From contig CAMUYT010000010.1 in the NCBI GenBank assembly GCA_947164955.1, forward strand, positions 1 through 35,197: 35,197 bases of DNA. The letters run 5' to 3'. The stretch is from an uncultured Bacteroidales bacterium. Lineage in GTDB: Bacteria > Bacteroidota > Bacteroidia > Bacteroidales > F082. A program made the translations under genes and the position numbers. Under the pieces are notes generated by a model, which saw only the letters and a program-made list of their open reading frames with translations, did no database searches and was not told the origin of the DNA. The first letter of the stretch is position 1; the number at the start of each line of letters is the position of its first letter. Positions 3,167 to 22,249 of the stretch are shown here, one piece after another.

Positions 3167-3200
3167 GGCAAAAAAATCCCTTTTTTTTCATTTTTTTGCC
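3167..3200 (-). terminator. A/U-rich hairpin at end of response-regulator gene
   Basis: An 11-bp perfect inverted repeat (GGCAAAAAAAT at 3167-3177 with ATTTTTTTGCC at 3190-3200; 12-nt loop) spans the response-regulator stop codon. The transcript would end in a U-rich arm, so a weak terminator is plausible, but the stem is mostly A-U. Confidence 0.4.
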
Positions 3201-3817
3201 ACCAAATCGGCGTCGTAGGCATACTTTACCAGGTCGGAAGTGGTCTTGAGGTCGAGCTTTTCGAAGATATGGCTTTTGTGCACTTCCACCGTGCGGCGGC
3301 TCAAGCCAAGGTGGTCGGCGAGCTGCTGGGCCGACAAGCCTTTGGCGCACAGCTGGATGATCTCTATTTCGCGAGCCGACAGGTCGGCTTTAGCCTTGAT
3401 GCGGTATTGCAACGCTTCGGTGTCATCATCGCGCCTGAACAGGGCGTCGAGCTTGGCTTTCATCTCTTCCTGGTCCATGTTCTTGCCCCAATAGTCATCC
3501 ACGATGCCTTGGGTGCGACCGACGACTTTGGGGTTGCTGATCTCGCCCGAAAGCAGGACGATTTTGGCCTTGGGGCTGAAAGCACGCGCACAATCAATCA
3601 CATTGACGCCGTCGCCGTCGGGCAAGAAGTAGTCGAGCAGGATGAGGTCCACCTCATCGCCGTGTTGCTCAAGGAATCTCTTGGCCGATGCGACGTCTTC
3701 GGCTTCGCCGACAACGATGCAGTTCATACCCAAGTAGTTGAGCGACAAGCGGGCGCCTACGCGATAGAGCGGATGGTCGTCGACGATGAGGATGCGTATA
3801 GGCTGTTGTTGGTTCAT
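3188..3817 (-). CDS. NarL/LuxR-family response regulator
   Basis: This 209-residue protein has an N-terminal receiver and a C-terminal LuxR-type helix-turn-helix. In the receiver the acidic pair is D13/D14, the phospho-acceptor is D62 (LILLDYFLPDGDG), the switch Ser is S90 and the conserved Lys is K112. The output domain (about 145-205) has the typical LSAREIEIIQLCAKG and LSRRTVEVHKSHIFEKL motifs. Its ATG overlaps the kinase stop in an ATGA, so the two are translationally coupled and it is the likely partner of that kinase. NarL-type regulators usually bind inverted repeats as dimers, so the flanking palindromes at 3147-3162 and 5701-5716 are candidate sites. Target assignment is inference. 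Confidence 0.93.
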   Translation of the reverse strand: MNQQQPIRILIVDDHPLYRVGARLSLNYLGMNCIVVGEAEDVASAKRFLEQHGDEVDLILLDYFLPDGDGVNVIDCARAFSPKAKIVLLSGEISNPKVVGRTQGIVDDYWGKNMDQEEMKAKLDALFRRDDDTEALQYRIKAKADLSAREIEIIQLCAKGLSAQQLADHLGLSRRTVEVHKSHIFEKLDLKTTSDLVKYAYDADLVAKK

Positions 3818-5652: not shown

Positions 5653-5670
5653 TTCTAGTGGATCAGGTCG

Positions 5671-5716
5671 CAAAATTAGCAATGATTTCTGAGACGGTTA
5701 TAAGTAAATTTACTTA
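5671..5716 (-). promoter_or_regulatory. Kinase-operon promoter with upstream 16-bp palindrome
   Basis: On the minus strand the -7 box TAATTTTG (5671-5678) is a full match to TAnnTTTG and sits 18 bp before the kinase ATG. The perfect palindrome TAAGTAAATTTACTTA (5701-5716) begins 22 bp upstream of it, covering the -33 region. The spacer also resembles that of the adhesin promoter (shared ..aa.cgt..c..aaatc). This suggests autoregulation by the adjacent regulator. Confidence 0.6.
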
Positions 5717-5941: not shown

Positions 5942-8900
5942 TTACTGCCGCTGATAGACATAGCCGTGGCCGGGTTGTAAGGTTACAACCCCATCCGTCC
6001 AGGTCGTGCCGTCGTAGGTGGACACGTTGCCGTCCTTGTCGGTGATGGTGTCGCCATTGGCAGGCGTGATGCCGAGGCTGCCGAGGGCGGTGGCGATGTC
6101 GGCGGCTTGCGTGCCCGTGTAACCAATCCAATTATGGCCTGAGAAAATGGTCGGGCTGACATTGCCGACAGGGGCGCCGGTGAGCGCCAGCGAACAGGCG
6201 GCACTGGTCTCGATCTTATACATCTTGCCGGGCTCGATGCTGGTGAGCGTACCACTCCAGCTACCGTTGGCATATTCGGCGAAGCCACCGTCCTGCGAGT
6301 TGATGAGGAGGCCCGAAGTGCCAAGGGCGGCCTCGATCTGCTCGAGGGTGACGTTGACGGTGGGTGTCCACCAGTTGGCGCCTTTGATGAGACTGACCGT
6401 TTGGGTAGCGACCTCAGCGAAGTTGGCCACTAAGTTGCGGTCGGCAGTGACGGTGAAAGTGTAGCTGGCATCGGCCAGCACGGCAGCGTCGTTCTCCGTC
6501 CAGTTCACGAAGCCGTAGCCCGTGTTGGGCGTGGCCGTCACGGTGCAGGTCTCGCCTTCGTAATAGGTGGCACTCACCTCCCCTGTCTCGATTTCGCCTT
6601 CCACGATGGTGATGTCGTCGACATAAAGCAGATGTTGGTCATAGCAGTTATAATGGCGAATGGCTATGTAACCCATGCCGCTATAGGCGCTCAAATCAAC
6701 AGTATATTCGTGCCAACTGTTGTCCTCCAATGTCACTTCCAGCTCATAATGCGTGAAGTCGCTAGTGCTAGTGTTGCCCGATTCCGATATCACTACATAG
6801 AAAGTCTCTGCAGGATAGTTGCTCATTCGAGCTGCTGCATAGAAAGTAATGCTGCCGCCCAAACGAACTTGTGGCGAGACAAGATAATTGTCAGGGTAAA
6901 CCGCGCTACCAGAGCCGCCCGATGTGGATGCTGAAATATAGGATTCAGAAAGCATCATTCCAGAAGAAGAATTGTGACATTCTGGAACAATCTGGTTCCC
7001 ATTGGAGTCATAGGCAACGTATTCCGTGTTATGCATCCAATTGTGCGATGATGTGCCATCAGAGCCTTTCAGGGCTGTCCAGCCCTGCCAGCCGTCCTCA
7101 AAGTCATAGGTGAGTTCGTCCCTGTTGCCTCTGCCGCCGAAGGCGACGGTGCCGCCTTCCACGGGGTTGGGGGCGATGGTGACGGTGTATTGCGGGATGG
7201 CGGTGAAGGTGGCCGTGTAGGTGGCGTTCTCTGTCACCGTGAAGGTGTAGGTGGCGTTGGTGCTCACCACGGTGTTGCCTTTCTTCCAGTTGGTGAAGGT
7301 GTAGCCCGTATGGGGTGTGGCCGTAAGGGTGCATTGGTCGCTCAACTCGTATACGCCACCACCACTCACCGTGCCGCCTTCGGCGGGATTGGCCGTGGCG
7401 GTGATGTAGGCTTGGTTCGTATTGCCCACCACCGTGATGGTGCCGAGGTAGGTCACCTTGTTGTAGCCGAACACGCAGAGGGTGAGTTCGTCGCCCGCAG
7501 TGAGCGTACCATTAATATTAATGGTGGCGGTGGTGCCGCTCACGGTGGCTTTGCCCAAGATGTTGTGGTTGGCATCGGTGATGGTGGCCACTGCCCCGTT
7601 GCCGTTGCTGACGGTGACGGTGTAGGACGTGGCGCCCAAGTCAATGCTGCCAGCGTGGGTGACCGTCATGGCTTGCGGGGTCTTGGTGCGGAGCATCAGC
7701 GAGGGGTCGCCGTAGAGGATCCAGGCTTGGTAGGTGCCGACGGCGGATTGATTGGTAGTGCTATAATTGTCAAAAATAGCCATCATACCATTGACCATTG
7801 TTCCACCCAAGGTGCGTTTGATGTTGTTGTTGTAGCTCTCCACGAGGATGTCGACAAACTCGTCTTGTGCCCACATGGGCGGAATCCATGGTTGAGAGAT
7901 GTAAGAGAATGCACCGCCGATGGCACCCGTAGGGTTCGAACCATTAGTGGCATGCATCCAAGTCTCACCAAAGCAATCTCCACTCGAGTAGTCATACTTG
8001 CCCACCAAGCAAGCCACCGAGAAGATAAAAGGCAATTTATTGTCGTTGGTTAGGGCGTTGACATAAGTGTTCGTGTAGTAAGGTGAGTGGGACTGCCATC
8101 CGGTTTCCTGCCCATGGTTGCAGTAATTGATTATGCCCACGCCACTATTGATATGGTTGCTAATGGTAGTGCACGAAGATGAAGGATATCCGCTCACATT
8201 GTAATAATCTTGATAAACAGTGCTATAGCCATAGTTCATCAAATCAGTGCGAAGGTTTTCGATATGTTGGTAATCATCTTCGTTGTTATGGCCGCCACTG
8301 CCTGCCGAGGCGCTGATACCCAAGCCATTTTGGCACCAAGTGGCAGATGTGGTAAGGTCACGTTCGTAAGTGATGATACGGTTGACTTGCGTGGCCACTT
8401 GAGTCGTGCTGCTGGCCGAGAAACGACCGATGAACACGTCGTTGTAGATGTCGCTACCGACAATTTGGCCATAGGCGTTGTCGCCCTTGCCAGCATAGCT
8501 GGAGCCACCACCAGTATAGGTATATCCAGAAATCTGCGCCACATCGCCGACGAGCAGCACGTGGGTCAGGTTGTTGTTGGCGTTGTATTGGTTCTGGATG
8601 TATGTCTTGATGGCCGAGTAGGTGCTTCCTGCCGTGCTGGTGCCCACGATGGTGGTGTTGACGCCACGGGTCTTCTTCCAGTTGACGAAATCGGTCATCG
8701 AGCTGATGAAGTTGTCGTAGCAGATGATGAGCAGGTCGCCTTCCTCATCGAGGGGTGTGTAGCGGCCCATCGCGGCTTCGTAGTTGATGAAGTGGCGTTG
8801 GTAGACGCTCTTGAAGTCGGGGTCCATCTTCACCACGTTGCTGCGGCGGCTCTCGATGGTGTTTTCGCCATGGTCGTCAATCTTGTACATCTCAACGGTC

Positions 8901-9475
8901 ATGTCGTAGTACACGCGGAGCGTCTTGGTGGCGGGGTTGTAGGCGAAGGGATAGACCACCATGTTCTGTCCGCGGAAGTCGCGGATGATGTAAGGGTCGT
9001 AGAGTCCCACGTTGTTGGCGGGATAGAAAGCGTCTTGACTGTAGCAGGCGCCGTAGGTGTAAGGCACGTCGTCGGGGTTCACGGTGCGGGGGAAGTCGCC
9101 CTTCGACGGGGCCACCTCGATGCCTTCGAAGTCGCGGTACCGTGCCTCCACGACGCGGATGCCCATACGGGCCTTGTCGCCGATGAGCACGGGGATGCCA
9201 GTCATGGGCATGTCGGGTTCGCCGGCGTGGGCCGTGCTGACGGCCTTGGGCAGGCTGACGATGTTAGCTTCGCCACGGGGTGTGGTGACACTGGCGGTGT
9301 AGAAGCCAGGCACCTGCACGTTGACTTGGATGCTGTTTTCCGAGCTGCTGATGAGTTGGGTGCGGTAGGTCTCGGGCTGGTCGCCGAGAATGGAGGTCCA
9401 TTGGGGAGCGGCCTGCTGCGCCGAAGCCCAGAGGGCGGCGACGAGCAATAACGACAGAGTAAGATGTTTTTTCAT
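5942..9475 (-). CDS. Arg-gingipain-like C25 cysteine peptidase
   Basis: This is a 1177-residue secreted endopeptidase with a signal peptide (1-19), a propeptide and a catalytic domain. The dyad is visible as H454 (NYCNHGQETGW) and C489 (FSVACLVG). Compared from memory with P. gingivalis RgpB, D401 (EDDYQH) falls at the S1 Asp163 that recognises Arg, and W530 (SQPW) at Trp284; NNIKRTLGGTMVNGM and YGDPSLMLRT are also Rgp-like. An Ig-like domain follows. An InlB-type repeat (about 688-1018) is interrupted by a MAM-like domain (about 785-963). The last 147 residues are the duplicated WNWW/LQPG domain shared with four neighbours, not a canonical T9SS tail. It has its own promoter and terminator. 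Family assignment is firm; Arg specificity is inference. Confidence 0.93.
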   Translation of the reverse strand: MKKHLTLSLLLVAALWASAQQAAPQWTSILGDQPETYRTQLISSSENSIQVNVQVPGFYTASVTTPRGEANIVSLPKAVSTAHAGEPDMPMTGIPVLIGDKARMGIRVVEARYRDFEGIEVAPSKGDFPRTVNPDDVPYTYGACYSQDAFYPANNVGLYDPYIIRDFRGQNMVVYPFAYNPATKTLRVYYDMTVEMYKIDDHGENTIESRRSNVVKMDPDFKSVYQRHFINYEAAMGRYTPLDEEGDLLIICYDNFISSMTDFVNWKKTRGVNTTIVGTSTAGSTYSAIKTYIQNQYNANNNLTHVLLVGDVAQISGYTYTGGGSSYAGKGDNAYGQIVGSDIYNDVFIGRFSASSTTQVATQVNRIITYERDLTTSATWCQNGLGISASAGSGGHNNEDDYQHIENLRTDLMNYGYSTVYQDYYNVSGYPSSSCTTISNHINSGVGIINYCNHGQETGWQSHSPYYTNTYVNALTNDNKLPFIFSVACLVGKYDYSSGDCFGETWMHATNGSNPTGAIGGAFSYISQPWIPPMWAQDEFVDILVESYNNNIKRTLGGTMVNGMMAIFDNYSTTNQSAVGTYQAWILYGDPSLMLRTKTPQAMTVTHAGSIDLGATSYTVTVSNGNGAVATITDANHNILGKATVSGTTATININGTLTAGDELTLCVFGYNKVTYLGTITVVGNTNQAYITATANPAEGGTVSGGGVYELSDQCTLTATPHTGYTFTNWKKGNTVVSTNATYTFTVTENATYTATFTAIPQYTVTIAPNPVEGGTVAFGGRGNRDELTYDFEDGWQGWTALKGSDGTSSHNWMHNTEYVAYDSNGNQIVPECHNSSSGMMLSESYISASTSGGSGSAVYPDNYLVSPQVRLGGSITFYAAARMSNYPAETFYVVISESGNTSTSDFTHYELEVTLEDNSWHEYTVDLSAYSGMGYIAIRHYNCYDQHLLYVDDITIVEGEIETGEVSATYYEGETCTVTATPNTGYGFVNWTENDAAVLADASYTFTVTADRNLVANFAEVATQTVSLIKGANWWTPTVNVTLEQIEAALGTSGLLINSQDGGFAEYANGSWSGTLTSIEPGKMYKIETSAACSLALTGAPVGNVSPTIFSGHNWIGYTGTQAADIATALGSLGITPANGDTITDKDGNVSTYDGTTWTDGVVTLQPGHGYVYQRQ

Positions 9476-9506
9476 ATTTTTGGGATTTTACTTGATTTCG
9501 AGACCA

Positions 9507-9514
9507 CAAAAATA
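9507..9514 (-). promoter_or_regulatory. -7 box for the Arg-gingipain-like gene
   Basis: TATTTTTG on the minus strand matches TAnnTTTG, 31 bp upstream of the ATG. It sits in an A/T-rich stretch. Confidence 0.55.
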
Positions 9515-9593
9515 GGAAAAATAATACAAAAAAAGGGAAAAAATCGCATTTGAAGGGAGGGGGGGCTTGGAATCCCCCTGGCCCCTTGTTACT

Positions 9594-9720
9594 CCCCCTG
9601 CCCCCTCAAAAGGGGGAAAGGGGGAGGGCCTGCCGGACGTGGGGCGCGAGGCGGGGCTTCGAATCCCCCCTGCCCCCCTTAGAAGGGGGAGGCGCGAGGC
9701 GACGCGGCGCGAGGCGGCGA
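9594..9720. repeat. Composite G/C-run intergenic repeat, copy 1
   Basis: Two submodules can be separated. X has CCCCCTGCCCCCT, a short loop, AGGGGGAAAGGGGGAGG, then CCTGCCGGACGTGG. Y has GGCTTCGAATCCCCCC, TTAGAAGGGGGAGG, then several GCGCGAGGCG units. Each submodule can fold into a C-run/G-run hairpin. The order here is X then Y; copy 2 has the reverse order. Confidence 0.75.
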
Positions 9721-9764
9721 CAGGTGGTCTCCTGAGGGGAAACCTAAGCTTATTTTTCCTTCGG

Positions 9765-9860
9765 TTTTTGTCCAAATCTATAGTTTTTAATACACTTTTG
9801 GACGAAAATCATTCAATTTTTGTCCAAATCTATGGTTTTTTACCCACTTTTGGACGGAAA
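9765..9860. repeat. Two tandem 44-bp hairpin units, period 52 bp
   Basis: Copies at 9765-9808 and 9817-9860 each start TTTTTGTCCAAATCTAT and end CACTTTTGGACG.AAA. In each, GTCCAAA pairs with TTTGGAC across a loop of about 20 nt. The copies differ at a few loop positions and are separated by 8 bp. I do not recognise the element. Confidence 0.75.
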
Positions 9861-9964
9861 GTTCTCTCTCTGGATTGCTTCCACCGCGTTCTGCTCGTGG
9901 CAGGCTTGTGCATCCTTGCAAATCTTTGATTCGATGTATTCAATGGCGCGAGGCGAGGACTAGA

Positions 9965-10140
9965 GCGCGAGGCGGGTTTTTGAATCCCCCCGCCCCCTTA
10001 GAAGGGGGAGGCGCGAAGCGACGCGGCGCAAGGCGGGTCTTCGAATCCCCCCGGCCCCCTTAATCCCCCTGCCCCCTTTCAAAGGGGGAAGCAAAGGGGG
10101 GAGGCCTGCCGGACGTGGAGGCGCGAAGCGGCGATGAGGA
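9965..10140. repeat. Composite G/C-run intergenic repeat, copy 2
   Basis: The same submodules as at 9594-9720 are in the order Y then X: GCGCGAGGCGGG, GAATCCCCCCG, TTAGAAGGGGGAGG, then CCCCCTGCCCCCTTTC, AAAGGGGGAAG and GCCTGCCGGACGTGG. It ends in GGCGCGAAGCGGCGATGAGGAC directly beside the terminator. A closely similar end (GGCGCGAGGCGACGATGAGG) also abuts the terminator at 5896. Confidence 0.75.
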
Positions 10141-10141
10141 C

Positions 10142-10169
10142 AAAAAAAGGCCGCCTTGCGGGGCGGCCT
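10142..10169 (-). terminator. Rho-independent terminator after the Lys-gingipain-like gene
   Basis: On the minus strand AGGCCGCCCCGCAAGGCGGCCT forms a strong stem (10148-10169) followed by seven Ts, 21 bp beyond the stop codon. It nearly matches the terminator at 5896-5923. Confidence 0.88.
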
Positions 10170-10190
10170 CGTTGTTTTTTCCGGCATCAA

Positions 10191-13100
10191 TCACTGCTGC
10201 CGGTAGTAGACGTAGCCGTGGCCAGGTTGTAAGGTTACACCACTCGTCCAAGTCGTGCCGTTGTAGGTGGACACGTTGTCGTTCTGGTCGGTGATGGTGT
10301 CGCCGCTGACGGGCGTGATGCCGAGGCTGCCGAGGGCGGTGGCGATGTCGGCGGCTTGTGGGCCCGTGTAGCCGAACCAGTTATGGCCAGGCATGAGGGT
10401 CAGGCTGACACCTGTAGCGGGTGCGCCACTCATGATGAGGCCGACGGGAGCCGTGGTCTCGATCTTATACATCTGTCCGGGGACAATCTCCGTCAGCGTG
10501 CCGCTCCAAGCGTTGTTCTCATAACGCGCAAAGCCACCGTCTTGCGAGTTGATGAGGACGGCATTGCTACCGAGGGCTTCTTCGAGTTGCTCGAGCGTCA
10601 TCGTCGTGGTGGGCGTCCACCAGTTGGAGCCGGCGGACAAAGTAGGATAGACTTCACCATTGAGGCCTACGTTGGAGGTGACGTCGCCCGTAGCGACAGT
10701 CAAGGTCTCGTTGTATTGGCCTTGGCTGAGGTCCCCTTTGAGGCGGACGTAGACGTTAGCAGCGAGAAGGTCTGTGGTCGGGTTGGTGGGGTTGACGGGA
10801 GCTTCTCCCCCACCTTCCACGATGGTGATGTCGTCGACCAACAGCGAGGCTTGGTCTGCATCGGCAGTGTGGCGGATGGCCACATAACCTTGACCTGTGT
10901 ATGCGCTCAAGTCCACAGTCACCATGGTGTAATCTGTAGATGTCACTTGGGTCGCAGGTAGTAATGCGGTAGCAAACTGACCGATCGCATTGGTTCCTGT
11001 CGACAAATGAACAGAATAGTAGTCCGTATAACTGGTGTTCGTAATCTTGATGTAAAAAACCATATTTCCACCAAGTGTAATTTGAGGTGAAATCAGCCAA
11101 TCGTCAACGGCATTGGAGGCATCATAAACGGATCCCACATAATAGTTTCCGCTATTCGTTGTATAAACCGTACCCGAAGAACCGGATGGATTATAGCCGC
11201 TTTGTCCTACGGCCCATGTAGTTGAGCCGTTGTCGTCACTACCTACAGTCCATCCTTGCGTGGTGCCATCCTCGAAGTCGTAGGTCAGCGTTTCGCGGCC
11301 ACTTCTATTGCTTGCCGTAAGGGTCAAAGTAGAACCGAAGGTGCCGTTCTCCGCGTCGCTGATCTCATAATCGGCGGGAGCGGTGACGGTGATGTCGCCC
11401 GACAGGTCGACACCGATGACGGCAAAACTCTGCACCGCCGACGGGCCGTCTCCCTCGGCATAGCCGAACCCGGACACGGCGTTCGGCGACACGGCAAGGC
11501 TCGCGCTCGCACTGCCCACCTGCATCGTGAAGGTCACCTGGTTGTTAGAAGTGACCTGAGTGCCTGAATTGGAAGAGGCGGAGGCGGGATTAAAGTTGGT
11601 GTTATCGTTGTAGATGTACAAAGCGCGGTTAGCACTAGTAGAATAGACATAGAATTTTGGCGAGTTGCTCGAACTGCTCACATAGGAGCCCGTGTTATCG
11701 TCCATGCAGACGAGCAGGTTGCTCTCACCATCATACTCGAAGGGAGTGGCCAAAGTGATGGTAGTCCAACCTGAAGAATTGAAGGTGACGCTGCCACTGA
11801 ACACCTTGTCACTGTTAGAGCAAGTCGCCCAGTCGGTACCACTACTGAAAGCGGTCTTGGAGGTGTGTTTCAGGTAAAGATCAATGTTTCTCGTGGCCGA
11901 CTTGCTATTCGACACCTTGAAAGCCACCTTGGTGATGGTGCCAGCACTTCCGACTTCAGCCGCAGTATAGATTTGTTGCGTCAAGCTGTAGTTGTAGTAT
12001 GCGTAGGTCGGCAGGTATTGGTTAGCACTTGTCCCGCTACCAATGGTTATTTCAGCCTCCTGGGTCATCTTGAAGATGCCGACGACGGTGACGTCGTAGG
12101 CAGGCAGGACAAACTGGTTGTTCGTCACCGCCACGGTGGTGTTCACATCGCCCGTCTTGAACACGAGCCATGTGCTCAAGAAGTAATCGGCATCAGGCGT
12201 AGCCGTCAAAGTGATGGTGGTGCCTGGTGCGCCGCCTGTGGCCGATGCCGCCACCGTTCCATGTTCCACCTCGGCCACAGTAACGGTACAGCCGCTGACG
12301 AAAGTAGCACTCACTGTCACGTCGCTGTCGGGCATGGTGAACTGGTTGTCGGTCACGGCGATGCTGTTGTTGTTGGCATCCCTGACGTCCCATGTCGAGA
12401 AGAAATAACCCGAAGCAGGGGTGGCACTCAGGGTGACGGTCTCGTTCTTGTAGGCTGTGGTCGGGTTGGCGCTGATGCTTCCGTTCTCAACGGGGTTGCA
12501 AGTGATACCATGAGGCATCAGCGCTGTGAAATTAGCCGTATAGGTGGCGTTTTGTGTGACCGTAAAGGTATAAGTCGGGTCGGTGCTCACCACGCTGTTG
12601 TCCATCTTCCAGTTAGCGAAGTCGTAATGGGCGTTCGGGGTTGCCGTCAGTGTGCAGGAGGTGTTCCCGTAATATCGACCAGCGCCGCTCACGGTGCCTC
12701 CATCGGATGGGTTGACTTCAGCGGTGATGGTGTATTGCGTACCGCCCACGATGCTGATGGTGCCGAAATAGGGTTGGTACTGCTGGCGGGTGACGACCAC
12801 ATAGAGCGTGCCAGTGCTGGGGATGGCATTGGTGAAGTTCACGGTGGCCACACCTGATGTGTTGGCTTCGGCCACGCCGTAGATGACCGAGCTGTTGTCG
12901 GTGACGGCGACGTAGGAGCCGGCCACGGCATTCACGGTGATGGAGGTGGTGCCAGGGGTGACTGTGCTGGGTATCGTCACGGTGTTGGCTTCAGGCTTGG
13001 TGATGTAAGGCATCACGGAACCATCGCCGAAGGTGTGGTAGAACTGGAAGTAATAGTGGGCCGAGTTGTTGCAGTCGCCATCGGTGACACCACTTGTGGT

Positions 13101-14936
13101 ATTGCCGTTGGTGACGGCTTGCTGCACGGCGAGGTTACCGACATAGAGCAACGACGATGCCGAGTTCCAGTATTGGTCTTCAAACATGATATCGTAAACA
13201 CCTTTTGAAGAAGCCGACTGAGTCGGGTAGTTGCCTGCCGAGTAGGAATGTGCTCCAACTGCCCAATAAAAGTCCTCATACCAATAGGAATAGGGCGAGC
13301 AGCCAACATAGGCAACGGCACCGGCATTGGGAACACGAATCATAGTTTCCGCAAAACAGGCGTTGGTGCCTATGGCAGAACCAGGTGAATAGGTTGTCGA
13401 GGTATTGTTGAAGTTACCTGTCAGGCAGCAGTTACCCACGCCAAAGAAATACTTGCCCGTGTTGGTAAGCGTGGCCACATGGGCAGCAGTCATTTTAGGC
13501 TGATACCATTCCTGCTTGTCGCCGTGTGCGGTGTAGTTCAGGAAGCACACACCGTTGTTGATGCCATTATAGCAACCGTTGTTCGTTCCAGAATAACCCT
13601 GTGTCGAGCTTGTTGACACTGTGGCACTGATAGTGCCGTTTTCAAAGCCACCATAGGTGGTGTTACTTGACTTGAAGTAATAGTTCGTAGCATAGTTGAT
13701 GGTGGGTTTGGCCACTCTGGCTGTCCAACTCGAATCCCAACCGCCGACAAGGATGACGTTATTCAAGTAGTTGCCACCGTCGGTGAACTCGTATTTTTCG
13801 TAGGTCAGCACCTTGTTGATATAGTTGGTCAGGTGGGTGGTGTTTTCCACCGACATACGGCTGTAGTACATGTCGGGAAAGTAGTTGCTGGTGCTTGAAG
13901 AGAAATTGACGCTTGCATAGCCAAGGTCGGAGGCACATGACTCGTCGACGGTCTTGGTCATGTATTGCGGCACTTGTCCAGTGTCGCCAATCACCAGCAG
14001 ATACGTGTAGGCGTTTCCAGCTGAGACCGATGCGTTGTACTTTGTCTTGATGAACGAGGCGATGGCGGTTGCCGTGGTGCCTGCGTTGTTGGTGCCGGTG
14101 CCTGTATAATAAATGTCTACATAATAACCCTTTTGTAATTTCCATTGCAGCCAGCTCTCAAGGGCAGCATTGCCTTGGAATCCAGAATAGCAGATCACCA
14201 ACATCCTCACGGGCGTGTTGTAGAGGTCGGGATGGTCGGTATAGACGTCCGTTATGGCCCTGTTGTTGAACAGCTGTGCATAGACGTTGTCGAAAGCGGG
14301 GCTATAGGTCTTCACCAACATATCCTCCGTGGCTTGGGTGTCGGCATCGTCGAAGTGGACTTCCACCTCGATGTCGTTGAACACGCGGAGGGTGTTGTTG
14401 ACAGGGTCGTAGCTCACCGGCTCGATGGTCATCTTGCCGAGCTGCACGCCACGCATGGTGCCTTCCACGCTCACCACGGCTTGGGGCGTCGAGCGCAGGC
14501 CACGGGTCTGGTAGGCCGATGCGTTGTAGACGAAAGGCACGTCCTCGGGTCGCTGGTCCTTGCGCAGCGAAGGCTGACGTGGCACCAAGGTGTGGATGCC
14601 GAGGTCTTCGAGGCGGTAGTCCGTCGTGCTGTAACTCGTGATCTCGATGCGCGGCTGTGCGCCGAAGGGCACGGCGATGAGCTGGTTGACGACGGGGATC
14701 TGCGGATCGCCTTCGTTGCCGCCGATGACGGTGTTGGGCATGGAGAGCCACGAGAAGGTGCCGCGTTCGCTGTCGTAGTCCTCCGCCTCGATGGTGGAGA
14801 AGGAGAACGAAGCCTTGAGGCCCGTCATGTCGCTTTTGACGCATTCAGCCTTGTCGGCCGAACGCAGCTGGATCTGTTGTGCCATGGCGCTGAGGCCGAA
14901 GGCAACAAGGATAAGGGTTAAAGACAGTTTTTTCAT
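10191..14936 (-). CDS. Lys-gingipain-like C25 cysteine peptidase
   Basis: This 1581-residue secreted peptidase has a signal peptide (1-19), a propeptide and a catalytic domain with H471 (NYTAHGDKQEW) and C504 (GVGNCCLTGNF). The H-to-C distance of 33 matches P. gingivalis Kgp (H444/C477, from memory). SPYSYWYEDFYW aligns with Kgp SPNSYWGEDYYW, placing D555 at the S1 Asp516 that reads Lys; HTFGDGSVMPY is also Kgp-like. Downstream are an Ig-like domain, three InlB-type repeats (about 731-957), a beta-sandwich domain (about 960-1140), a domain split by a MAM-like insertion (about 1213-1375) and the duplicated WNWW/LQPG C-terminal domain (about 1434-1581). No canonical T9SS tail is visible. It lies 34 bp behind the M14 gene, probably in one operon. 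Lys specificity is inference. Confidence 0.93.
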   Translation of the reverse strand: MKKLSLTLILVAFGLSAMAQQIQLRSADKAECVKSDMTGLKASFSFSTIEAEDYDSERGTFSWLSMPNTVIGGNEGDPQIPVVNQLIAVPFGAQPRIEITSYSTTDYRLEDLGIHTLVPRQPSLRKDQRPEDVPFVYNASAYQTRGLRSTPQAVVSVEGTMRGVQLGKMTIEPVSYDPVNNTLRVFNDIEVEVHFDDADTQATEDMLVKTYSPAFDNVYAQLFNNRAITDVYTDHPDLYNTPVRMLVICYSGFQGNAALESWLQWKLQKGYYVDIYYTGTGTNNAGTTATAIASFIKTKYNASVSAGNAYTYLLVIGDTGQVPQYMTKTVDESCASDLGYASVNFSSSTSNYFPDMYYSRMSVENTTHLTNYINKVLTYEKYEFTDGGNYLNNVILVGGWDSSWTARVAKPTINYATNYYFKSSNTTYGGFENGTISATVSTSSTQGYSGTNNGCYNGINNGVCFLNYTAHGDKQEWYQPKMTAAHVATLTNTGKYFFGVGNCCLTGNFNNTSTTYSPGSAIGTNACFAETMIRVPNAGAVAYVGCSPYSYWYEDFYWAVGAHSYSAGNYPTQSASSKGVYDIMFEDQYWNSASSLLYVGNLAVQQAVTNGNTTSGVTDGDCNNSAHYYFQFYHTFGDGSVMPYITKPEANTVTIPSTVTPGTTSITVNAVAGSYVAVTDNSSVIYGVAEANTSGVATVNFTNAIPSTGTLYVVVTRQQYQPYFGTISIVGGTQYTITAEVNPSDGGTVSGAGRYYGNTSCTLTATPNAHYDFANWKMDNSVVSTDPTYTFTVTQNATYTANFTALMPHGITCNPVENGSISANPTTAYKNETVTLSATPASGYFFSTWDVRDANNNSIAVTDNQFTMPDSDVTVSATFVSGCTVTVAEVEHGTVAASATGGAPGTTITLTATPDADYFLSTWLVFKTGDVNTTVAVTNNQFVLPAYDVTVVGIFKMTQEAEITIGSGTSANQYLPTYAYYNYSLTQQIYTAAEVGSAGTITKVAFKVSNSKSATRNIDLYLKHTSKTAFSSGTDWATCSNSDKVFSGSVTFNSSGWTTITLATPFEYDGESNLLVCMDDNTGSYVSSSSNSPKFYVYSTSANRALYIYNDNTNFNPASASSNSGTQVTSNNQVTFTMQVGSASASLAVSPNAVSGFGYAEGDGPSAVQSFAVIGVDLSGDITVTAPADYEISDAENGTFGSTLTLTASNRSGRETLTYDFEDGTTQGWTVGSDDNGSTTWAVGQSGYNPSGSSGTVYTTNSGNYYVGSVYDASNAVDDWLISPQITLGGNMVFYIKITNTSYTDYYSVHLSTGTNAIGQFATALLPATQVTSTDYTMVTVDLSAYTGQGYVAIRHTADADQASLLVDDITIVEGGGEAPVNPTNPTTDLLAANVYVRLKGDLSQGQYNETLTVATGDVTSNVGLNGEVYPTLSAGSNWWTPTTTMTLEQLEEALGSNAVLINSQDGGFARYENNAWSGTLTEIVPGQMYKIETTAPVGLIMSGAPATGVSLTLMPGHNWFGYTGPQAADIATALGSLGITPVSGDTITDQNDNVSTYNGTTWTSGVTLQPGHGYVYYRQQ

Positions 14937-14970
14937 ATCGTTAGGTGATTGTTTGTTGTTTCATTTAGGA

Positions 14971-17316
14971 TTACTCGCCTGTGTAGCCACTGGGTCTGAA
15001 ATACACGTAGCCGTGGCCGGGTTGCAGATGGGTCAGTTCGCCCTTCCACTGGCCGTCTTCGAAGATGGCGAAGCTCTCATCTTGCGAGTTGATCATGTCG
15101 CCTTCGAGCGGCGTGATGCCGTTGAGAGCGGCACGGATGACGACAGTCCCCGCACCCGTATACCCGAACCAATTGAAGCCTGGTTCGATGGAAAGGCTGA
15201 CCGTGGACGGGCGCATCCCCTCAATCACAAACTCGCAGTCGGCGTTGGTCTTGATTTTGTACATCTTGCCTGGGACGACTTCCTCGACAGCCTCTTCCTG
15301 TCCTTCGATTTGCACCAGGTGATCGCCCAGCGCAGCCGTCAATGCTTCCAGACTCGTCGCAACCGTTGGCGCCCACCAATTCCAGCCTTCAACCAAAACC
15401 ACAGATTGCTCGGCACTGACGGCCGGACAATCGCATTCAGTGAAGAAACTGATGTTGTTTTGCTGGGTTGTGCTTAGGGCAAAGGAGCCGTTGATATAGT
15501 ACAAGTAATAATTCGTAGTTCCTCCTCCCCAACCTCCGCTGGAAACAGTTACATAAGTGCCATTTTCGTTGATATACCATCTAGCGGAAGAGCTGTTATA
15601 TGAATTACTCCATGTAAGAGAGGTGCTATACCAACTACTGGACAATGCAAGGTAATGGCCATTATAGGAAATATAATACTGTCCATTGCTTCCATAGGCA
15701 GTCAGAGTGACTTGAGGGAGTGTAGTGCCTTCTTCTACCGAGAAGCCGTTGATGTTAGGCTCTACAGTGGCCGAAATGCTTGTCACATTTGAGCTGTTCT
15801 GACCTGGCATATAAAGGGTAGTGTCATCGAGATGACCCATGATGTATGTGCCAGCGTCAATGCCAGTCACTGCATTATAGCAATCCGTCTGAACTTCGCA
15901 ATGGCCAAGATTCACGGTGAGATCCACACGCTGTCCGTCTGTTATGGTCACATCAACTGTTTCGGTGCAATAACCGCTCTTCCTAAATTCAAAAGTATAG
16001 CTGCCACCTTTAATGGGTCGGTGGAAATCACCCGCTGAATGCGTAGTGACAAACGAAGTCTCGCTGTCGTGGTTGAGCACAGTCACTTTCACGCCTTCGA
16101 TAGGTTGGCCTGTGTCGGCGTCACGCACCACGCCATGAACGCCATTACGGCATTGCTCCATGAAGGCTAACATACTATTGTGGTTATAGTTCCAATAACT
16201 TGGAAGCAATGAGGCACTGGGAGTTTTGGTGCTGGAGCATTCCACGGTCACCTCGCGGCATTGCCCGTAGGCATTCATGTAGTCCTGCCGGCTACCCGTG
16301 ATGACATACCAAGCAGCACCGTTAGTGACACCATCTTGATAAGTGTCTTTCATATATGAAGAATAAGTCTGACGGGCAATTTGCACATATTCGGTGCAGA
16401 CATATTCGTACCAATCCTTGTCAGCATGGTCGTCGTAAACGGCATCCCAAGGATAGTTCATCACCTCTGCTCCACCGTGATAGTTGGCACTCATGGTGAA
16501 CAGGTTCTCGTCGCCCATGGCCATGGTCCAAACTGTTTCATCCTCATAACTGTTACCATCGGGATGAGCACCTTGGTAGTAATCTTTGTAATTGCGGTTA
16601 AGGTCGACGTTATTACCATTATAGCGCTGGGCACTATTGACAGTATTGTTGCCCCCTTTGTAAGTACCATCGGGGTTGGTCAAAGGCATGATATAGATAT
16701 CAAGGTCGTTCACCAGGTCGACAATACGGCTGTCGGTGCTGGTGCAGAGTTCGTCGATGAGGCGGAGCATGAGGATCATGCCGGTCACCTCGTCGCCATG
16801 CATCGTGGAAGTGTAGAGGAACTTCGGCTTGCCCTCGGGGTTCCCATTGTTGATGCGGACACCTAAGAGTTGGCGATGGTTTGTGGTGGAAAGCGTTCCC
16901 AAGCTGAACAAAGTGCATTCACGGCCTTCAATGGCATTCCCAGGAAAGCTTTGCATCATAGCAACGTATTGATCATAGGTCAGATAGCTGTCCCAATTAT
17001 ACGTGCCTTGTCCATTCCACATGGTGACGTTGGCACGCAGCGAAGGCGGCGTCTGCAACTCGGGCTGGAAGCCCAGGCTGAGCAGTTTGTCGTATTCCCT
17101 TTGGTTGGCGTAGGCGACGACGGTCCGGCCGTCGGTGGCATCGACGGAGCAGACTTGGCTGATCTCGTTGATTACAGTGGGGTCGTCGACGCTGAGGGTG
17201 AAATAATACTCACCGCGGTCGCGCATGAGTTGTTGGAGTTCTCGTTGGCTTTGGGCCATGACGCTGTTGCCGATCCATACGGCGACAAACAAGCAAGCAA
17301 AACGTAAAAGCTTCAT
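14971..17316 (-). CDS. Secreted M14 zinc carboxypeptidase
   Basis: This 781-residue metallocarboxypeptidase has a signal peptide (about 1-21) and a short propeptide. Zinc ligands are visible as H173/E176 (TMHGDEVTG) and H280 (NYHGGAEV), with catalytic E359 (VTVECSS); NPDG and DLNRNY are further M14 motifs. A transthyretin-like CarboxypepD_reg domain (about 392-470) follows, as in the secreted P. gingivalis carboxypeptidase CPG70. After a region of unknown fold (about 475-630) comes the shared duplicated C-terminal domain (about 642-781), ending GYVYFRPSGYTGE. It is probably first in an operon with the Lys-gingipain-like gene; C-terminal Lys/Arg left by the two gingipain-like enzymes would be natural substrates, but that is inference. 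Confidence 0.93.
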   Translation of the reverse strand: MKLLRFACLFVAVWIGNSVMAQSQRELQQLMRDRGEYYFTLSVDDPTVINEISQVCSVDATDGRTVVAYANQREYDKLLSLGFQPELQTPPSLRANVTMWNGQGTYNWDSYLTYDQYVAMMQSFPGNAIEGRECTLFSLGTLSTTNHRQLLGVRINNGNPEGKPKFLYTSTMHGDEVTGMILMLRLIDELCTSTDSRIVDLVNDLDIYIMPLTNPDGTYKGGNNTVNSAQRYNGNNVDLNRNYKDYYQGAHPDGNSYEDETVWTMAMGDENLFTMSANYHGGAEVMNYPWDAVYDDHADKDWYEYVCTEYVQIARQTYSSYMKDTYQDGVTNGAAWYVITGSRQDYMNAYGQCREVTVECSSTKTPSASLLPSYWNYNHNSMLAFMEQCRNGVHGVVRDADTGQPIEGVKVTVLNHDSETSFVTTHSAGDFHRPIKGGSYTFEFRKSGYCTETVDVTITDGQRVDLTVNLGHCEVQTDCYNAVTGIDAGTYIMGHLDDTTLYMPGQNSSNVTSISATVEPNINGFSVEEGTTLPQVTLTAYGSNGQYYISYNGHYLALSSSWYSTSLTWSNSYNSSSARWYINENGTYVTVSSGGWGGGTTNYYLYYINGSFALSTTQQNNISFFTECDCPAVSAEQSVVLVEGWNWWAPTVATSLEALTAALGDHLVQIEGQEEAVEEVVPGKMYKIKTNADCEFVIEGMRPSTVSLSIEPGFNWFGYTGAGTVVIRAALNGITPLEGDMINSQDESFAIFEDGQWKGELTHLQPGHGYVYFRPSGYTGE

Positions 17317-17336
17317 TTTTTGGAATTTTTAACCTG

Positions 17337-17344
17337 CAAATTTA
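17337..17344 (-). promoter_or_regulatory. -7 box for the M14/Lys-gingipain-like operon
   Basis: TAAATTTG on the minus strand matches TAnnTTTG, 20 bp upstream of the carboxypeptidase ATG. The upstream gene ends in a terminator at 17401-17430, so a promoter is expected here. Confidence 0.6.
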
Positions 17345-17400
17345 CTAAAAAATTAGACTCGCAAGACAATTTGCTTCCTATTTTTGGTTTTTCATGGAAC

Positions 17401-17430
17401 AGAAAAGGTTCCCGCGCGGGAACCTTTTCT
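17401..17430. terminator. Perfect 30-bp palindromic terminator after the C10 gene
   Basis: AGAAAAGGTTCCCGC and its exact complement form an uninterrupted 30-bp palindrome starting 10 bp beyond the C10 stop. The A4/T4 flanks give a U-run in either direction, though the minus-strand C10 transcript is its evident client. Confidence 0.85.
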
Positions 17431-17440
17431 CATTGGAATT

Positions 17441-20422
17441 TTATGGTAACACAAGGGTTTTCTCAACTTGGGCGTTCGAGTAGTAGATATAGCCTTGCCC
17501 AGGTTGAAGATGCGTCAGTGTGCCCGTCCAAGCGCCACTTTGATAGACGGCGTTTTGAGTCGGCGAACTGATGGTATCACCCTCGGCAGGGCTAATACCC
17601 AGTTCGGCGAGGCCCACATTCCTTGTTGTGGGGCAACCCAACCAGTTGCTTCCTGGAGCGATGGCCATCTCGACACCGCTGGTGGTAGTGCCTACCATCG
17701 TGGTGGATCGGCCTTGATCCATCCATATCTTGTACATCTGTCCAGGAGCAACGTCAGTCAACGTGCCCTTCCATTGGCCATTTTCATAACGTGCAAAGCC
17801 TAAGTCTTGTGAGTTGATGAGGTTGGCATCGCCGCCAAGCGTCGTCTTGAGTTGAGCAAAGAGGTCGTTGGCCACGACGTTAGGTGCCCACCAATTCCAC
17901 GAAGCCGGCAGGTCTTTCCGTATGGTCACGGCTACTCCATCATTGGCGATGAGTTGTGCGCCATTCTCAATGACGAGATTACCTGGACGGCTGTTGCTCA
18001 AACGAGCGTTGACGGTGAAGCAACTGTTCTCTGTCAGCAACAGTGTGTCTTTTCTACCCATTTCAGTAGCCTCATCGGAACTGGCATTACCCAGCACAAA
18101 CGCTGAGAAATTGGAGTCTTCAGACTCACGGCCAAAATAGTTGGTCCTCACCGTATATTTGTATGCCGCATTGTTACCCAGTCCCGAGTCAATATAGGTC
18201 GTGTCCGTCATGTTTTGCATTATGCATTCCCCATTGCGGTAAAGGTTATAGGTGTAGTCGCCATCGGTAACCGCAGCATAGATAATCCAGGTGCATCCTG
18301 TAGCATGATTCCATGTACTTCCATTAAGAGAATAATAGTCGCCATATTCATTCTCCATGTCAGCCAACAGGAATTGGGTGACATTACTTGAATAATATAC
18401 AATCCACAAATCCTTTGTATAGTCCAAAACCACTGGATTACTGAATGTCAAAGTCTGCCATCCGGCATTGCTCGAATAGGTGCCCGATGCAGTGGCGATT
18501 GCCGACCCTGCTGGGGCATCGTTTGAGGTTCCTTGATAGATTGAGACCTGATAGGTGCCTGCCTCATAGATGTAGGTCTCCACGCTCGTCATGGCCATGC
18601 CTGCATAAAACGACATCTGTGAGACCGGAAAACGGATGGCCCAATAAGCTCCTGTAGTTCCAAGGCTCGAAAGCCAGATGCTGCCATTATAGCCATTCAG
18701 CTGTTCAATTTCATAGGAGCCGCTTTCCAAACCATCCCAAGTGATTGTCGCTTTTTCACCCTCTAAAGTCGCGGTCAAATCGACAAGTGGGCCTTTAAAC
18801 TCCTGGTACAGCGTGGTCACCTCCGAGATTTCCGACAACTCGCCATTGAAATCGACGCCCCTCACGTAAAACGACAAGTCGCCATAAACACTGAGGGTGA
18901 AGGTATATGCCGTCGACGTCAAGCCCGAACCTATCAGCATGTCGTTGCAATACACATTATAGGAAACGGCCAAGTCGGAGGCATCCCATGAGATGCCAAA
19001 CAGGTCCTCGTCGTTTGTCGCGACAAAGTTCTCAGGAGCGGGAAATGAGATGGAAATCTCAGCGACATTCGAGTTCTGCGAGATGCCATTGCTCGAGTTG
19101 ACACACCTCACATAATAGCGGTTCGAGCCGTAAGGAGCTGTGACGTCGGAATAGGATGCTGTTGTGCCTTCATATATCAACACTGAGTTTCTGAAGAGTT
19201 GGTATTTAGACGCTCCCGATACGGTGTTCCAGCTTAAGTTGACGTCGCGTTGTGAGACATCCTGCACCAAAGTGGCGGTAAGCGTAGGGGCACTTAAACT
19301 GCTATAGGTAGGCTGAATGCCAAAAATAGCGGCTTGGCTAGAGTTATAGGTCCCCGATGAGCCCGACCCTGCCCCGCCTGTACCGGGATTCAGGTTGCTG
19401 ACCAAGAAGTAGCCGTCGTACATACCGCTCCAGCCCCAGTTGAAATGGAAGTAGTTGTCGCTGTCGTAGCCGTCGCACACGAAAGCATGACCACCACCCG
19501 TGCCACTACCACTGTAATAGACGGGGCGTCCTGCATTCAAATCGGTTTTCAGCAAATTCAGCCAAGAACTAGAATAACTTTGTTTTGTCTTATAGCTGAT
19601 GGTGCTACTGTTATAGCGGAAGTATGAAGTCAAGGCATCGTCAACGTCGGTAGAATAGGCACCGCTGCCATCAGTGCCATAACTCATCGACACAGAAACG
19701 CCACAATGGTACATCAAGGTGGCCACAGCGGTTTGTTGAGCTTCCGTGCTGTTTTCGTCATAGGTGTTGGTCATATTGGCCCAGTCGTAAGTGGTGTTAC
19801 CGAAGTTGACACTTAGCGTTTGGCTGTTCCAACGATAACTTTTCGAACCATTGCCTTGGATAGGCCAGTTCCAAAACTTCATCACTTGGGCCATGGCGGT
19901 GGCAACGCAACCTGTGTAGGTAGCCGTTCCGCTAACGGTGGGGCACAACTGGTTGTAGGGGTCGTCTTGGTCCCAAAAAGTTTGGATCAATGGCGCGACC
20001 ACCACCGTAGCGCGGGCGCCTCGGTTTCCGCTATAGAGATCATGCCATTGCTGGGCGACTTCGGCGGTGGCTGTAGCTCTGCAGTCGATAGCCGACTGTA
20101 TCTCGTCGCTATAACCCTGCAGCCAAGCACGAACGTTGTCGGGCATCGTAGCAGGATCGAAACTGCCCGTCAGCGAATAGCCCAACACAGGTTGAACACG
20201 GTCGTCGGCCGACATCACAATGAAGCCTGGGTTGGCGTTGTAGATATAAAGGTTGCGGAAGCCAGCGGCCTCTGTGAGGTCGATGAGGCGAGTGGCGTTT
20301 ACGCCATTGTTACTCAAGAAGGTCTTGGCGGCCTTTTGCGCTCGTGCTGTGTCGATGGAATCGGCAAAGGCCATCGCAGGCAGGGAGGCCATCAGCATCA
20401 AAGAGAATAGAACCTTTTTCAT
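17441..20422 (-). CDS. Secreted C10 (streptopain-family) cysteine peptidase
   Basis: This 993-residue protein has a signal peptide (about 1-20) and an inhibitory propeptide typical of C10 enzymes. The catalytic Cys is C172 (YTGCVATAMAQVMKFWNWP) and the His is H312 (GGGHAFVCDGYDSDNYFHFNW), followed by NWGWSG; this matches streptopain, interpain and PrtT. Several fibronectin-III-like modules follow, with a beta-sandwich module (about 600-745) that resembles the one in the Lys-gingipain-like protein. The shared duplicated C-terminal domain is at about 839-993, ending in AQVEKTLVLP, close to the endonuclease ending VQKTLEF. It is a single gene with its own promoter and a perfect palindromic terminator. 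The family is sure; substrates are not visible. Confidence 0.94.
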   Translation of the reverse strand: MKKVLFSLMLMASLPAMAFADSIDTARAQKAAKTFLSNNGVNATRLIDLTEAAGFRNLYIYNANPGFIVMSADDRVQPVLGYSLTGSFDPATMPDNVRAWLQGYSDEIQSAIDCRATATAEVAQQWHDLYSGNRGARATVVVAPLIQTFWDQDDPYNQLCPTVSGTATYTGCVATAMAQVMKFWNWPIQGNGSKSYRWNSQTLSVNFGNTTYDWANMTNTYDENSTEAQQTAVATLMYHCGVSVSMSYGTDGSGAYSTDVDDALTSYFRYNSSTISYKTKQSYSSSWLNLLKTDLNAGRPVYYSGSGTGGGHAFVCDGYDSDNYFHFNWGWSGMYDGYFLVSNLNPGTGGAGSGSSGTYNSSQAAIFGIQPTYSSLSAPTLTATLVQDVSQRDVNLSWNTVSGASKYQLFRNSVLIYEGTTASYSDVTAPYGSNRYYVRCVNSSNGISQNSNVAEISISFPAPENFVATNDEDLFGISWDASDLAVSYNVYCNDMLIGSGLTSTAYTFTLSVYGDLSFYVRGVDFNGELSEISEVTTLYQEFKGPLVDLTATLEGEKATITWDGLESGSYEIEQLNGYNGSIWLSSLGTTGAYWAIRFPVSQMSFYAGMAMTSVETYIYEAGTYQVSIYQGTSNDAPAGSAIATASGTYSSNAGWQTLTFSNPVVLDYTKDLWIVYYSSNVTQFLLADMENEYGDYYSLNGSTWNHATGCTWIIYAAVTDGDYTYNLYRNGECIMQNMTDTTYIDSGLGNNAAYKYTVRTNYFGRESEDSNFSAFVLGNASSDEATEMGRKDTLLLTENSCFTVNARLSNSRPGNLVIENGAQLIANDGVAVTIRKDLPASWNWWAPNVVANDLFAQLKTTLGGDANLINSQDLGFARYENGQWKGTLTDVAPGQMYKIWMDQGRSTTMVGTTTSGVEMAIAPGSNWLGCPTTRNVGLAELGISPAEGDTISSPTQNAVYQSGAWTGTLTHLQPGQGYIYYSNAQVEKTLVLP

Positions 20423-20437
20423 AGAAATAATTTATGT

Positions 20438-20457
20438 ATTAGACGCTTCAAAGATAG
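20438..20457 (-). promoter_or_regulatory. C10 gene promoter, 20-bp block shared with the kinase locus
   Basis: The block contains -7 box TATCTTTG (plus-strand 20449-20456) and the following GAAGCGTCTAAT, which should include the transcription start, about 15 bp before the ATG. The identical 20 bases occur at 5799-5818 upstream of the sensor kinase. Confidence 0.6.
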
Positions 20458-20503
20458 GAAAATTTGTTTTTGGAAAAATGGTTAGGAAAATTTTTGGCTT
20501 TTT

Positions 20504-22249
20504 TCAAAACTCCAGCGTCTTCTGCACTGTGTCCGCAGAGTAATACACATAACCCTTGCCAGGCTGGAGCGTTGTCAGCGTGCCTTGCCATCCCTCTTGG
20601 TAAATGGCGAAGCCTTCGTTTTCGGAGATGATTTTATCACCGCTGGCAGGCGTGATGCCGAGGTCGTCGAGGGCGACGGCTTCGACGGTCGGACAGCCGA
20701 ACCAATTGGCGACGCCAGGATAGATGGCGACACTCACATCGGCAGCGGGCGCGCCGCTGAAGTCCAGTTGCGTGGCATTGTCGGCCCAGATCTTGTACAT
20801 CTGTCCAGGGACAACGTGGGTCGGTGTCGTGCCGTCATGCCCATAGGCCTGCACGGCATCGAAGAGGCCGTCAACGTCCGCTTCAACGGTAGGCGCCCAC
20901 CAGTTCCAGCCGGCAGAAAGGGTGACGGATTGCGTGGCCGTCGGCGTCGTCTTCTTGTAGAGCTGAATGGGTTGTTGGTTGGTATATGTACTTGACTTGA
21001 AATAGCGGAAACGGTTTTGGTTTGAGGCATTGTTGAATCGCAGATGCGCTCCCACCGCTCCGACGATGTCGATGTCGTTGTCGTTAAACGATACCGTGTT
21101 GACATAAGCCATGGTTTGACTTGATTTCAAGCCGTTGTCATCTGTGGTCTGCCCAATGTAATACCCACTGGCACTCCGAATGGAATAGCCGCCGTCAACA
21201 GCGGCAATCGTAAACATAGCCGCATCAACGGTTTCGGTAGCTGCGATGGTGTTGTTTTCGATCGTAACACTGATGGTATTCCCCGTGGCATCGAGCGTGA
21301 TCAAACCACCGTCAAAGGCCAAACTGCCGTTTTCGTATACAATCAAGTATTCCCCGCTCCAGTCGTCGGGCGCGGCGGTGACTTTCACGTAATCGCCCTC
21401 GGCAGGGTCGTCGCCGCCTGGGTCGTCGCCTCCCCCACTCCAGTTCTCGTCCCAAATCATGCGGGCGTATTCGGGATGGTCGATGAAGGGGTTGCGGTTG
21501 TGCTGGTAGTCGGCGTAAATGGCATTGTTACGGTCGATTTCCTTTTGGCTCACGGGGTCTTGTTCGTTCCATTCCATGAGCATGGCGATGGCCCACGGCA
21601 AGAGCTCCGACTTGCTGGTCATGCCGCTGGCGCCCCAACTGCCATCCTCTGAATAATAACGCACGCTCATATACATAAGCGCACGGGCGAAATCGCCCTT
21701 ATAGGCGTCGATAGGCTCGAACACCGTGCCCGTGTAGCCCAAAGAGGTTTTGCAAGGCCCCAACTTCGAGCCATTCCTTGAAGTCCAAGAAGCGGATTGC
21801 ACTTCGCCGTAGGGATAATTGTCACGTTTTTGGTTGACGAAGCCATCGGTAGGGAAAATGTGGTGCAAGTCGGTGCGCGGCGTGGTTTGCTCGTTGAACC
21901 AGCTCTGTGGCCACGAATGCTCACGGTTGTAACAGTCGCCCTCGGTAGTATAGCTCCCACATTGGTTTTGGCCCATCTCAAAGGTATAGGGCGGCGTACC
22001 GCCTGGCACATCGGAATACATGTCCCAGACGATGCCGTTGCCTTTGTTGTCGGTGCTCCAAAAGGCGTTCCATAGATTATAGTATGAGACCGTGGTGTGT
22101 CCCTTGATGATGTCGTGCAAGGCCACCTTCAGTGCGTCGCCGGTCTTGCCGTTGGCAGCGTTGTAGTAGCCGCTCGGGACCTGGGCCATGAGCGGGGCTG
22201 CCATCAGGAGGGCAAACCAAAACAGGATGTATCGTCGGCGTTGCGGCAT
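20504..22249 (-). CDS. Secreted endonuclease I family nuclease
   Basis: This 581-residue protein has a signal peptide (about 1-22, after a basic MPQRRR start). The endonuclease I fold covers about 23-270, with DCYNREHSWPQSWF (H111) and TDLHHIFPTDGFVNQKR (H129/H130, N139), the expected metal-dependent nuclease motifs. A spacer rich in GGDDPGGDDP leads to a domain (about 285-435; VKVTAAPDDWSGEYLIVYE) that recurs in the large T9SS protein at 22671. The shared duplicated C-terminal domain (about 446-581) completes it. It probably degrades extracellular DNA for nutrients or in biofilm; that role is inferred. It has its own -7 box and no clear terminator of its own was seen. Confidence 0.93.
   Translation of the reverse strand: MPQRRRYILFWFALLMAAPLMAQVPSGYYNAANGKTGDALKVALHDIIKGHTTVSYYNLWNAFWSTDNKGNGIVWDMYSDVPGGTPPYTFEMGQNQCGSYTTEGDCYNREHSWPQSWFNEQTTPRTDLHHIFPTDGFVNQKRDNYPYGEVQSASWTSRNGSKLGPCKTSLGYTGTVFEPIDAYKGDFARALMYMSVRYYSEDGSWGASGMTSKSELLPWAIAMLMEWNEQDPVSQKEIDRNNAIYADYQHNRNPFIDHPEYARMIWDENWSGGGDDPGGDDPAEGDYVKVTAAPDDWSGEYLIVYENGSLAFDGGLITLDATGNTISVTIENNTIAATETVDAAMFTIAAVDGGYSIRSASGYYIGQTTDDNGLKSSQTMAYVNTVSFNDNDIDIVGAVGAHLRFNNASNQNRFRYFKSSTYTNQQPIQLYKKTTPTATQSVTLSAGWNWWAPTVEADVDGLFDAVQAYGHDGTTPTHVVPGQMYKIWADNATQLDFSGAPAADVSVAIYPGVANWFGCPTVEAVALDDLGITPASGDKIISENEGFAIYQEGWQGTLTTLQPGKGYVYYSADTVQKTLEF

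Follow-up and report, generated by a model that had tools for sequence, protein, structure and literature searches.

A duplicated domain at the end of five unrelated hydrolases

How do secreted enzymes without the C-terminal tail of the type IX secretion system (T9SS) come to end, one after another, in a different common domain? The question is raised by the window, the whole stretch of 35,197 nucleotides that was analysed (contig CAMUYT010000010.1 of assembly GCA_947164955.1, an uncultured Bacteroidales bacterium of the lineage F082). Five unrelated hydrolases encoded there on the minus strand carry the same duplicated terminal domain, which we call D. A second beta domain, E, is the regular companion of D, and F1 denotes the GYLY/GWNLIGNP module of a T9SS-tailed neighbour of the five. 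We tentatively favour the reading that terminal D may be a docking module, which would pack in trans on the E domain of a T9SS-exported partner and so attach the hydrolases or carry them out. The features concerned are as follows.

5942..9475, minus strand: C25 (gingipain-like) protease A, 1177 aa; signal peptide by eye
5942..6394, minus strand: terminal D of C25 protease A, residues 1028-1177; without the last beta strand by eye; ends in GYVYQRQ
10191..14936, minus strand: C25 protease B, 1581 aa
10191..10643, minus strand: terminal D of C25 protease B, residues 1432-1581; without the last beta strand by eye
14971..17316, minus strand: M14 carboxypeptidase, 781 aa
14971..15399, minus strand: terminal D of the M14 carboxypeptidase, residues 640-781; without the last beta strand by eye
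17441..20422, minus strand: C10 protease with an inhibitor I69 prodomain, 993 aa
17441..17929, minus strand: terminal D of the C10 protease, residues 832-993; modelled with a predicted local distance difference test (pLDDT) of 97.2 and a predicted template modelling score (pTM) of 0.90
20504..22249, minus strand: endonuclease I, 581 aa
20504..20923, minus strand: terminal D of endonuclease I, residues 443-581
22671..26411, minus strand: neighbour, 1246 aa, with CHB_HEX_C_1 and BACON domains, the D-like F1 module and a T9SS type A tail
22677..22838, minus strand: T9SS type A tail of the neighbour, the only one found in the contig

The catalytic domains of the five open reading frames (C25, C25, M14, C10 and Endonuclease_1) score far over their cut-offs. 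An earlier note on this DNA had claimed that all five end in one duplicated domain of 135-155 residues; the alignment bears out the common domain and sets its length at 139-162 residues. A profile built from the five tails matched them in their own genome (2.39 Mb, 229 contigs, 72.8% complete) with E 3.5e-78 to 6.7e-57, and found 17 further copies there down to 4e-22. The halves of D are homologous, as had been proposed (hhalign probability 99.3%, E 3e-20, halves taken over 158 copies), and INSQD lies where it had been placed: the C25 and C10 tails have it in their first half, the M14 tail in its second. D has no Pfam or NCBIfam family. By eye, the last beta strand (KTLxF) is missing in 8 of the 17 terminal copies of this genome, namely three in the window (both C25 and M14) and five others, and a terminal D without it possibly leaves the edge of the sheet open.

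The note's contrast between the five hydrolases, without a T9SS tail, and the neighbour, with one, also stands. None of the five proteins matched any T9SS tail model, and a six-frame search with Por_Secre_tail gave 115 matches in the genome, of which the one in this contig lies in the neighbour (22677-22838). That tail scores 25.4 bits with Por_Secre_tail, under the Pfam cut-off of 27, and 37.9 bits with TIGR04183 against a cut-off of 23. The F1 module just mentioned proved to be a relative of D, as suggested, albeit a remote one (hhalign 95.6%, E 1e-8, 75 columns).

D and the T9SS tail replace each other

Homologous enzymes were compared for the module at their C-terminus. Among the best 120 listed of 8000 scored homologues of endonuclease I, 68 end in D (two of these, P0081 and P0107, look like fragments), 22 in a T9SS tail, none in both and 30 in neither. 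At endonuclease loci in species genomes (best 80 of 372) the tail was found in 66, a D end in 3 and neither in 10, with one locus cut; the assemblies RUG382 and RGIG10001 hold one D-ending and one tailed endonuclease each. A search with the M14 tail returned 82 proteins, with D at the C-terminus in 81, a sole exception with 46 residues beyond D (P0201), and a T9SS tail in none. They comprise the enzyme kinds of the window as well as proteins with PF04371, PF16656 (purple acid phosphatase, N-terminal) and PF01120. Likewise, the fetched regions hold 60 D-terminal genes (two of which duplicate two others in their tails, L238 and L237) and 23 genes with D plus tail, with an overlap of 0, and two proteins of the same genome (L010 and L015) have F1 followed by D where the neighbour has F1 followed by the tail. 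Overall, D and the T9SS tail replace each other on homologous enzymes.

D is thus similar to the T9SS C-terminal domains of types A, B and C (PF18962/TIGR04183, PF13585/TIGR04131 and NF033708) in position, kinds of cargo and genomes, and alternates with them on homologous enzymes, but no relation to them in sequence or profile was found. The type A models had zero matches in the five proteins and in 50 D domains, and D compared with 149 type A tails by hhalign gave a probability of 0.4%, that is, no profile similarity. D is also about twice as long as the type A tail and duplicated, and stands internally before a type A-like tail in the loci sampled across the class. For type B, whose two model accessions are given in the part of PMC10202324 consulted, the 50 D domains had no match at E <= 0.1 in Pfam-A and NCBIfam, the models being assumed to be present in these libraries. 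The type C (ChiA) model NF033708, which is in the library, had zero D-domain matches; in this genome it reached 23 places, all under its cut-off and none on the window's contig (contig C10). The expectation that canonical sorting models would not hit D therefore held for all three types.

Two further observations concern the endonuclease family. Its closest named relatives are from uncultured Bacteroidales, mostly of ruminant or other herbivore guts, and several homologues with neither D nor T9SS tail (P0052, P0054, P0056, P0063 and others) finish with a dockerin-like repeat (DVNDDGTITIADVTALVNLILGK), a third kind of end module beside these two.

D is an older internal domain with one main terminal subfamily

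The position of D depends on how far from the window one looks. In the window's own genome 17 of 22 copies are C-terminal, with 0-12 residues past the match and no T9SS tail, and the other five are followed by 209-225 residues ending in such a tail, with no intermediate case. D was found in 25 of 30 genomes of the genus, where the 28 loci outside the own genome comprise 16 terminal, 10 tailed and 2 unresolved. In the order sample (D in 37 of 197 genomes) 23 of the 29 loci read are internal, 20 of these scoring with a tail model, and six are terminal: one belongs to the home genus, and the other five, spread over four other families, have a distant D type. This distant type (GWNLVSF...; L044, L046, L047, L051 and L052) is perhaps an independent case of a C-terminal D. 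In the class sample D occurs in 21 of 396 genomes, the own genome included; the other 20 contributed 27 loci, every one with an internal D that lies 202-287 aa ahead of the stop codon, and a tail model scores at 22 of them.

D-bearing genomes are T9SS genomes, as the earlier note had anticipated: the translocon protein SprA is present in all those of the order (37/37) and class (20/20) samples, 57 of 57 together. The order sample also has 10 genomes without SprA, none of which carries D; on its own this is weak, with an estimated chance probability of ~0.12. A T9SS sortase scores above cut-off in all 30 genus genomes examined. A pair of adjacent full-length PorU-like sortase genes is present in 24 of these (in the own genome at G000:C3:9521-16275, 1152 and 991 bits against a cut-off of 420); G001, G006, G008, G010 and G014 have one full-length copy only and G015 has fragments.

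On a tree of 158 D copies the terminal state changes 7 times, compared with 47 in shuffles. The main terminal clade (69 copies, approximate likelihood ratio test SH-aLRT 99) is terminal throughout, contains all five window domains and covers enzymes of the C25, M14, C10, endonuclease I and further kinds; terminal D also forms two smaller groups, of 12 and 11 rows. One row (clu_L168_11), labelled terminal owing to a cut region, was set aside because the same gene is tailed in another region (L139). Hence D is an older pre-tail domain, one main subfamily of which turned terminal in this lineage. This subfamily has extended to unrelated enzymes, in the manner of a tag or module.

D is tied to a second domain, E

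Internal D is followed by E, a beta domain of ~120 residues with the typical motif ELGAFVDGECRGS. At the class loci E stands after D in 25 of 27 and before D in 24 of 27, the common order being E-D-E-tail. E also occurs apart from D, in 19 proteins of the regions read, 14 of which score with a tail model. In 17 of the 19 it starts at residue 19-33, just past the signal peptide, the exceptions being L228_05 (at 100, apparently because the start codon was called too far upstream) and L234_04 (at 576). An hhalign match of E to the tail was traced to E rows running into the tail and was not used.

In 12 genus genomes picked for having or lacking D, E was found in every one of the 8 with D (in G020 by weak matches, E 3e-10 and 2e-6) and in 0 of 4 without D. 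The eight D-bearing genomes contain 15 genes with E and without D; the upstream neighbour is resolved for 14 of these, and in 12 cases it is an adjacent D gene on the same strand, so that the genes are arranged as the domains are in the fused chain. The remaining two are C11:30559 in the own genome, which lies behind an E gene, and a gene of G009 on contig C57.

Fusion and separation were both seen at one locus. In genome G023 it encodes one 1536-aa chain, D-E-F1-tail; in G011 it encodes a 1276-aa D-terminal protein and, after a gap of 17 nt, a 544-aa E-F1-tail protein, so that the break falls between D and E. The flanks are common to both (a 438-aa gene 98% identical, a 198-aa gene 91% and a tailed gene 85%). 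The own genome (G000, contig C49) has at this locus, with the 198-aa gene 91% and the tailed gene 72% identical, a 1116-aa chain without both D and E. Three states at one locus indicate that D and E come, go and part together. When the D-E part of the G023 chain was modelled by AlphaFold2 with 43 natural tandems, pTM was 0.88 even with a poorly ordered linker (~residues 161-190); by our estimate ~0.5 would be expected if the domains were free, which argues that their placement is fixed. D is therefore predicted to pack against E in a fixed way within one chain.

The window cluster has relatives with E nearby. Its counterpart in G003 (M14 71%, C25 69% and 84% identical, all D-terminal) continues via a C10-like D-terminal gene straight into E-D-E-tail and E-F1-tail genes on the same strand, and in G002 an E-F1-tail gene lies ~1.5 kb from the F1 gene of the cluster. 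Relatives of these E genes in the own genome (37-47% identical) sit on another contig, C136; altogether four E-first proteins were found in the own genome, on C11 and C136. The window cluster, whose counterparts have an E gene beside them, has thus either lost such a gene or lacked one from the start.

Directly downstream of the D cluster, positions 3188-5682 encode a LuxR-type response regulator and a histidine kinase that resembles FimS (217 bits, cut-off 600). Homologous kinase genes are near or adjoin D-terminal genes in three further regions (L162, L172 and L222), accompanied by the regulator in two. At the contig edge, the protein encoded at positions 2-3016 runs off the contig; it is at least 1005 aa long and contains a choice-of-anchor J domain as well as five InlB B-repeats.

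Discussion

The results above suggest how D may have come to its terminal position. Ancestrally, E-D-E blocks would have stood just before a T9SS tail in a single chain; in this genus a subfamily of D would have become the last domain of many unrelated Sec-exported hydrolases, with E also heading separate, mostly T9SS-tailed proteins. Sec would take the hydrolases to the periplasm, and D would pack onto the E of a separately made tailed protein. Binding in trans is what we infer here, along with a place and time, periplasm or cell surface, that would decide the role of the partner. If D and E docked before export, the enzyme would be a passenger; if they docked at the surface, the partner would be an anchor. 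The passenger form, in which D-terminal enzymes would first fold in the periplasm and then leave through the T9SS while docked on the E of a tailed partner, so that one carrier serves many tailless enzymes, strikes us as quite doubtful.

Several points weigh against docking. By itself it leaves the crossing of the outer membrane by tailless enzymes unexplained, and a direct signal function of D is possible. The D-E model is of a joined chain, in cis, and comes without predicted aligned error. Of the 12 D genes upstream of an E gene, 5 have a tail of their own (D-E-tail), 5 are D-terminal and 2 are cut by a contig end. An E-first gene comes immediately after just 9 of the 57 D-terminal genes whose neighbour is resolved, and the regions concerned were in part selected for D. 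No E was found on the window contig. The T9SS-tailed neighbour (22671-26411) is without detectable E, and the same holds for its homologues in G002 and G209 (706 residues at 44% and 604 at 73%).

Alternatively, terminal D could be a binding or stability module for glycan, envelope or substrate, on enzymes that are periplasmic, leak out or travel in vesicles, with loss of the tail having changed their location. We regard this as rather unlikely, because it leaves unexplained both the joint gain, loss, splitting and kept adjacency of D and E and the zero overlap of D-terminal and tailed forms.

It is also unlikely that terminal D is itself an alternative T9SS export signal, read by the secretion machine or a dedicated shuttle, much as the earlier note had envisaged in proposing a separate secretion or anchoring signal. 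Consistent with a signal, D takes the place of the tail in endonuclease I homologues and after F1 in two proteins of the own genome, is restricted to SprA-bearing genomes in the order and class samples, and is spread as a terminal tag across many enzyme families. That part of the proposal stands, but D is an old internal domain with a constant companion, and the idea that it is always C-terminal, which fits 17 of 22 own copies, fails outside the genus, where it is internal in 27 of 27 class and 23 of 29 order loci. Internal D outside the genus indicates that D did not originate as a sorting signal, and its close tie to E argues for docking rather than for a signal read directly by the secretion machine. 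In studied T9SS tails the last residues matter, whereas by eye almost half of the terminal copies of the own genome (8/17) lack the last strand; together with the lack of any relation to known tails, this weakens the direct-signal reading. The last residues of known tails are singled out in the part of the review PMC10202324 consulted.

That a simple truncation left D terminal, without functional meaning, is very unlikely: internal D is older, lies just before E and the tail, and changed state few times on the tree (7), but the 69-row terminal clade is maintained across many enzymes and genomes with protein ends close behind D, and the cluster is conserved in other genomes.

Docking has a familiar analogue in the cohesin-dockerin pairs of cellulosomes, in which enzymes carry one half of a docking pair and exported proteins the other. 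D and E may likewise be split over two genes, binding in trans being our proposal. No cohesin or dockerin family matched 50 D domains or six F1 proteins (five of which start with E), and, in contrast to that system, the scanned E-bearing proteins carry a T9SS tail at most. Immunoglobulin-like domains before the T9SS tail of cargo proteins, known to us from a title in the reference list of PMC10202324, are also folded domains directly preceding the tail; D differs in being duplicated, in having its own partner E and in its tailless terminal subfamily.

The usual way of counting T9SS cargo goes by the C-terminal tail, as is done with TIGR04183 in the part of PMC5831590 consulted. The split and fused forms of D and E at one locus make the docking question directly testable, and the small D-E pair would be a useful tool for the surface display of enzymes on harmless bacteria. 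If tailless enzymes do reach the surface by docking, tail-based counts would overlook a share of the proteins that gut Bacteroidales secrete, among them gingipain-like and other proteases.

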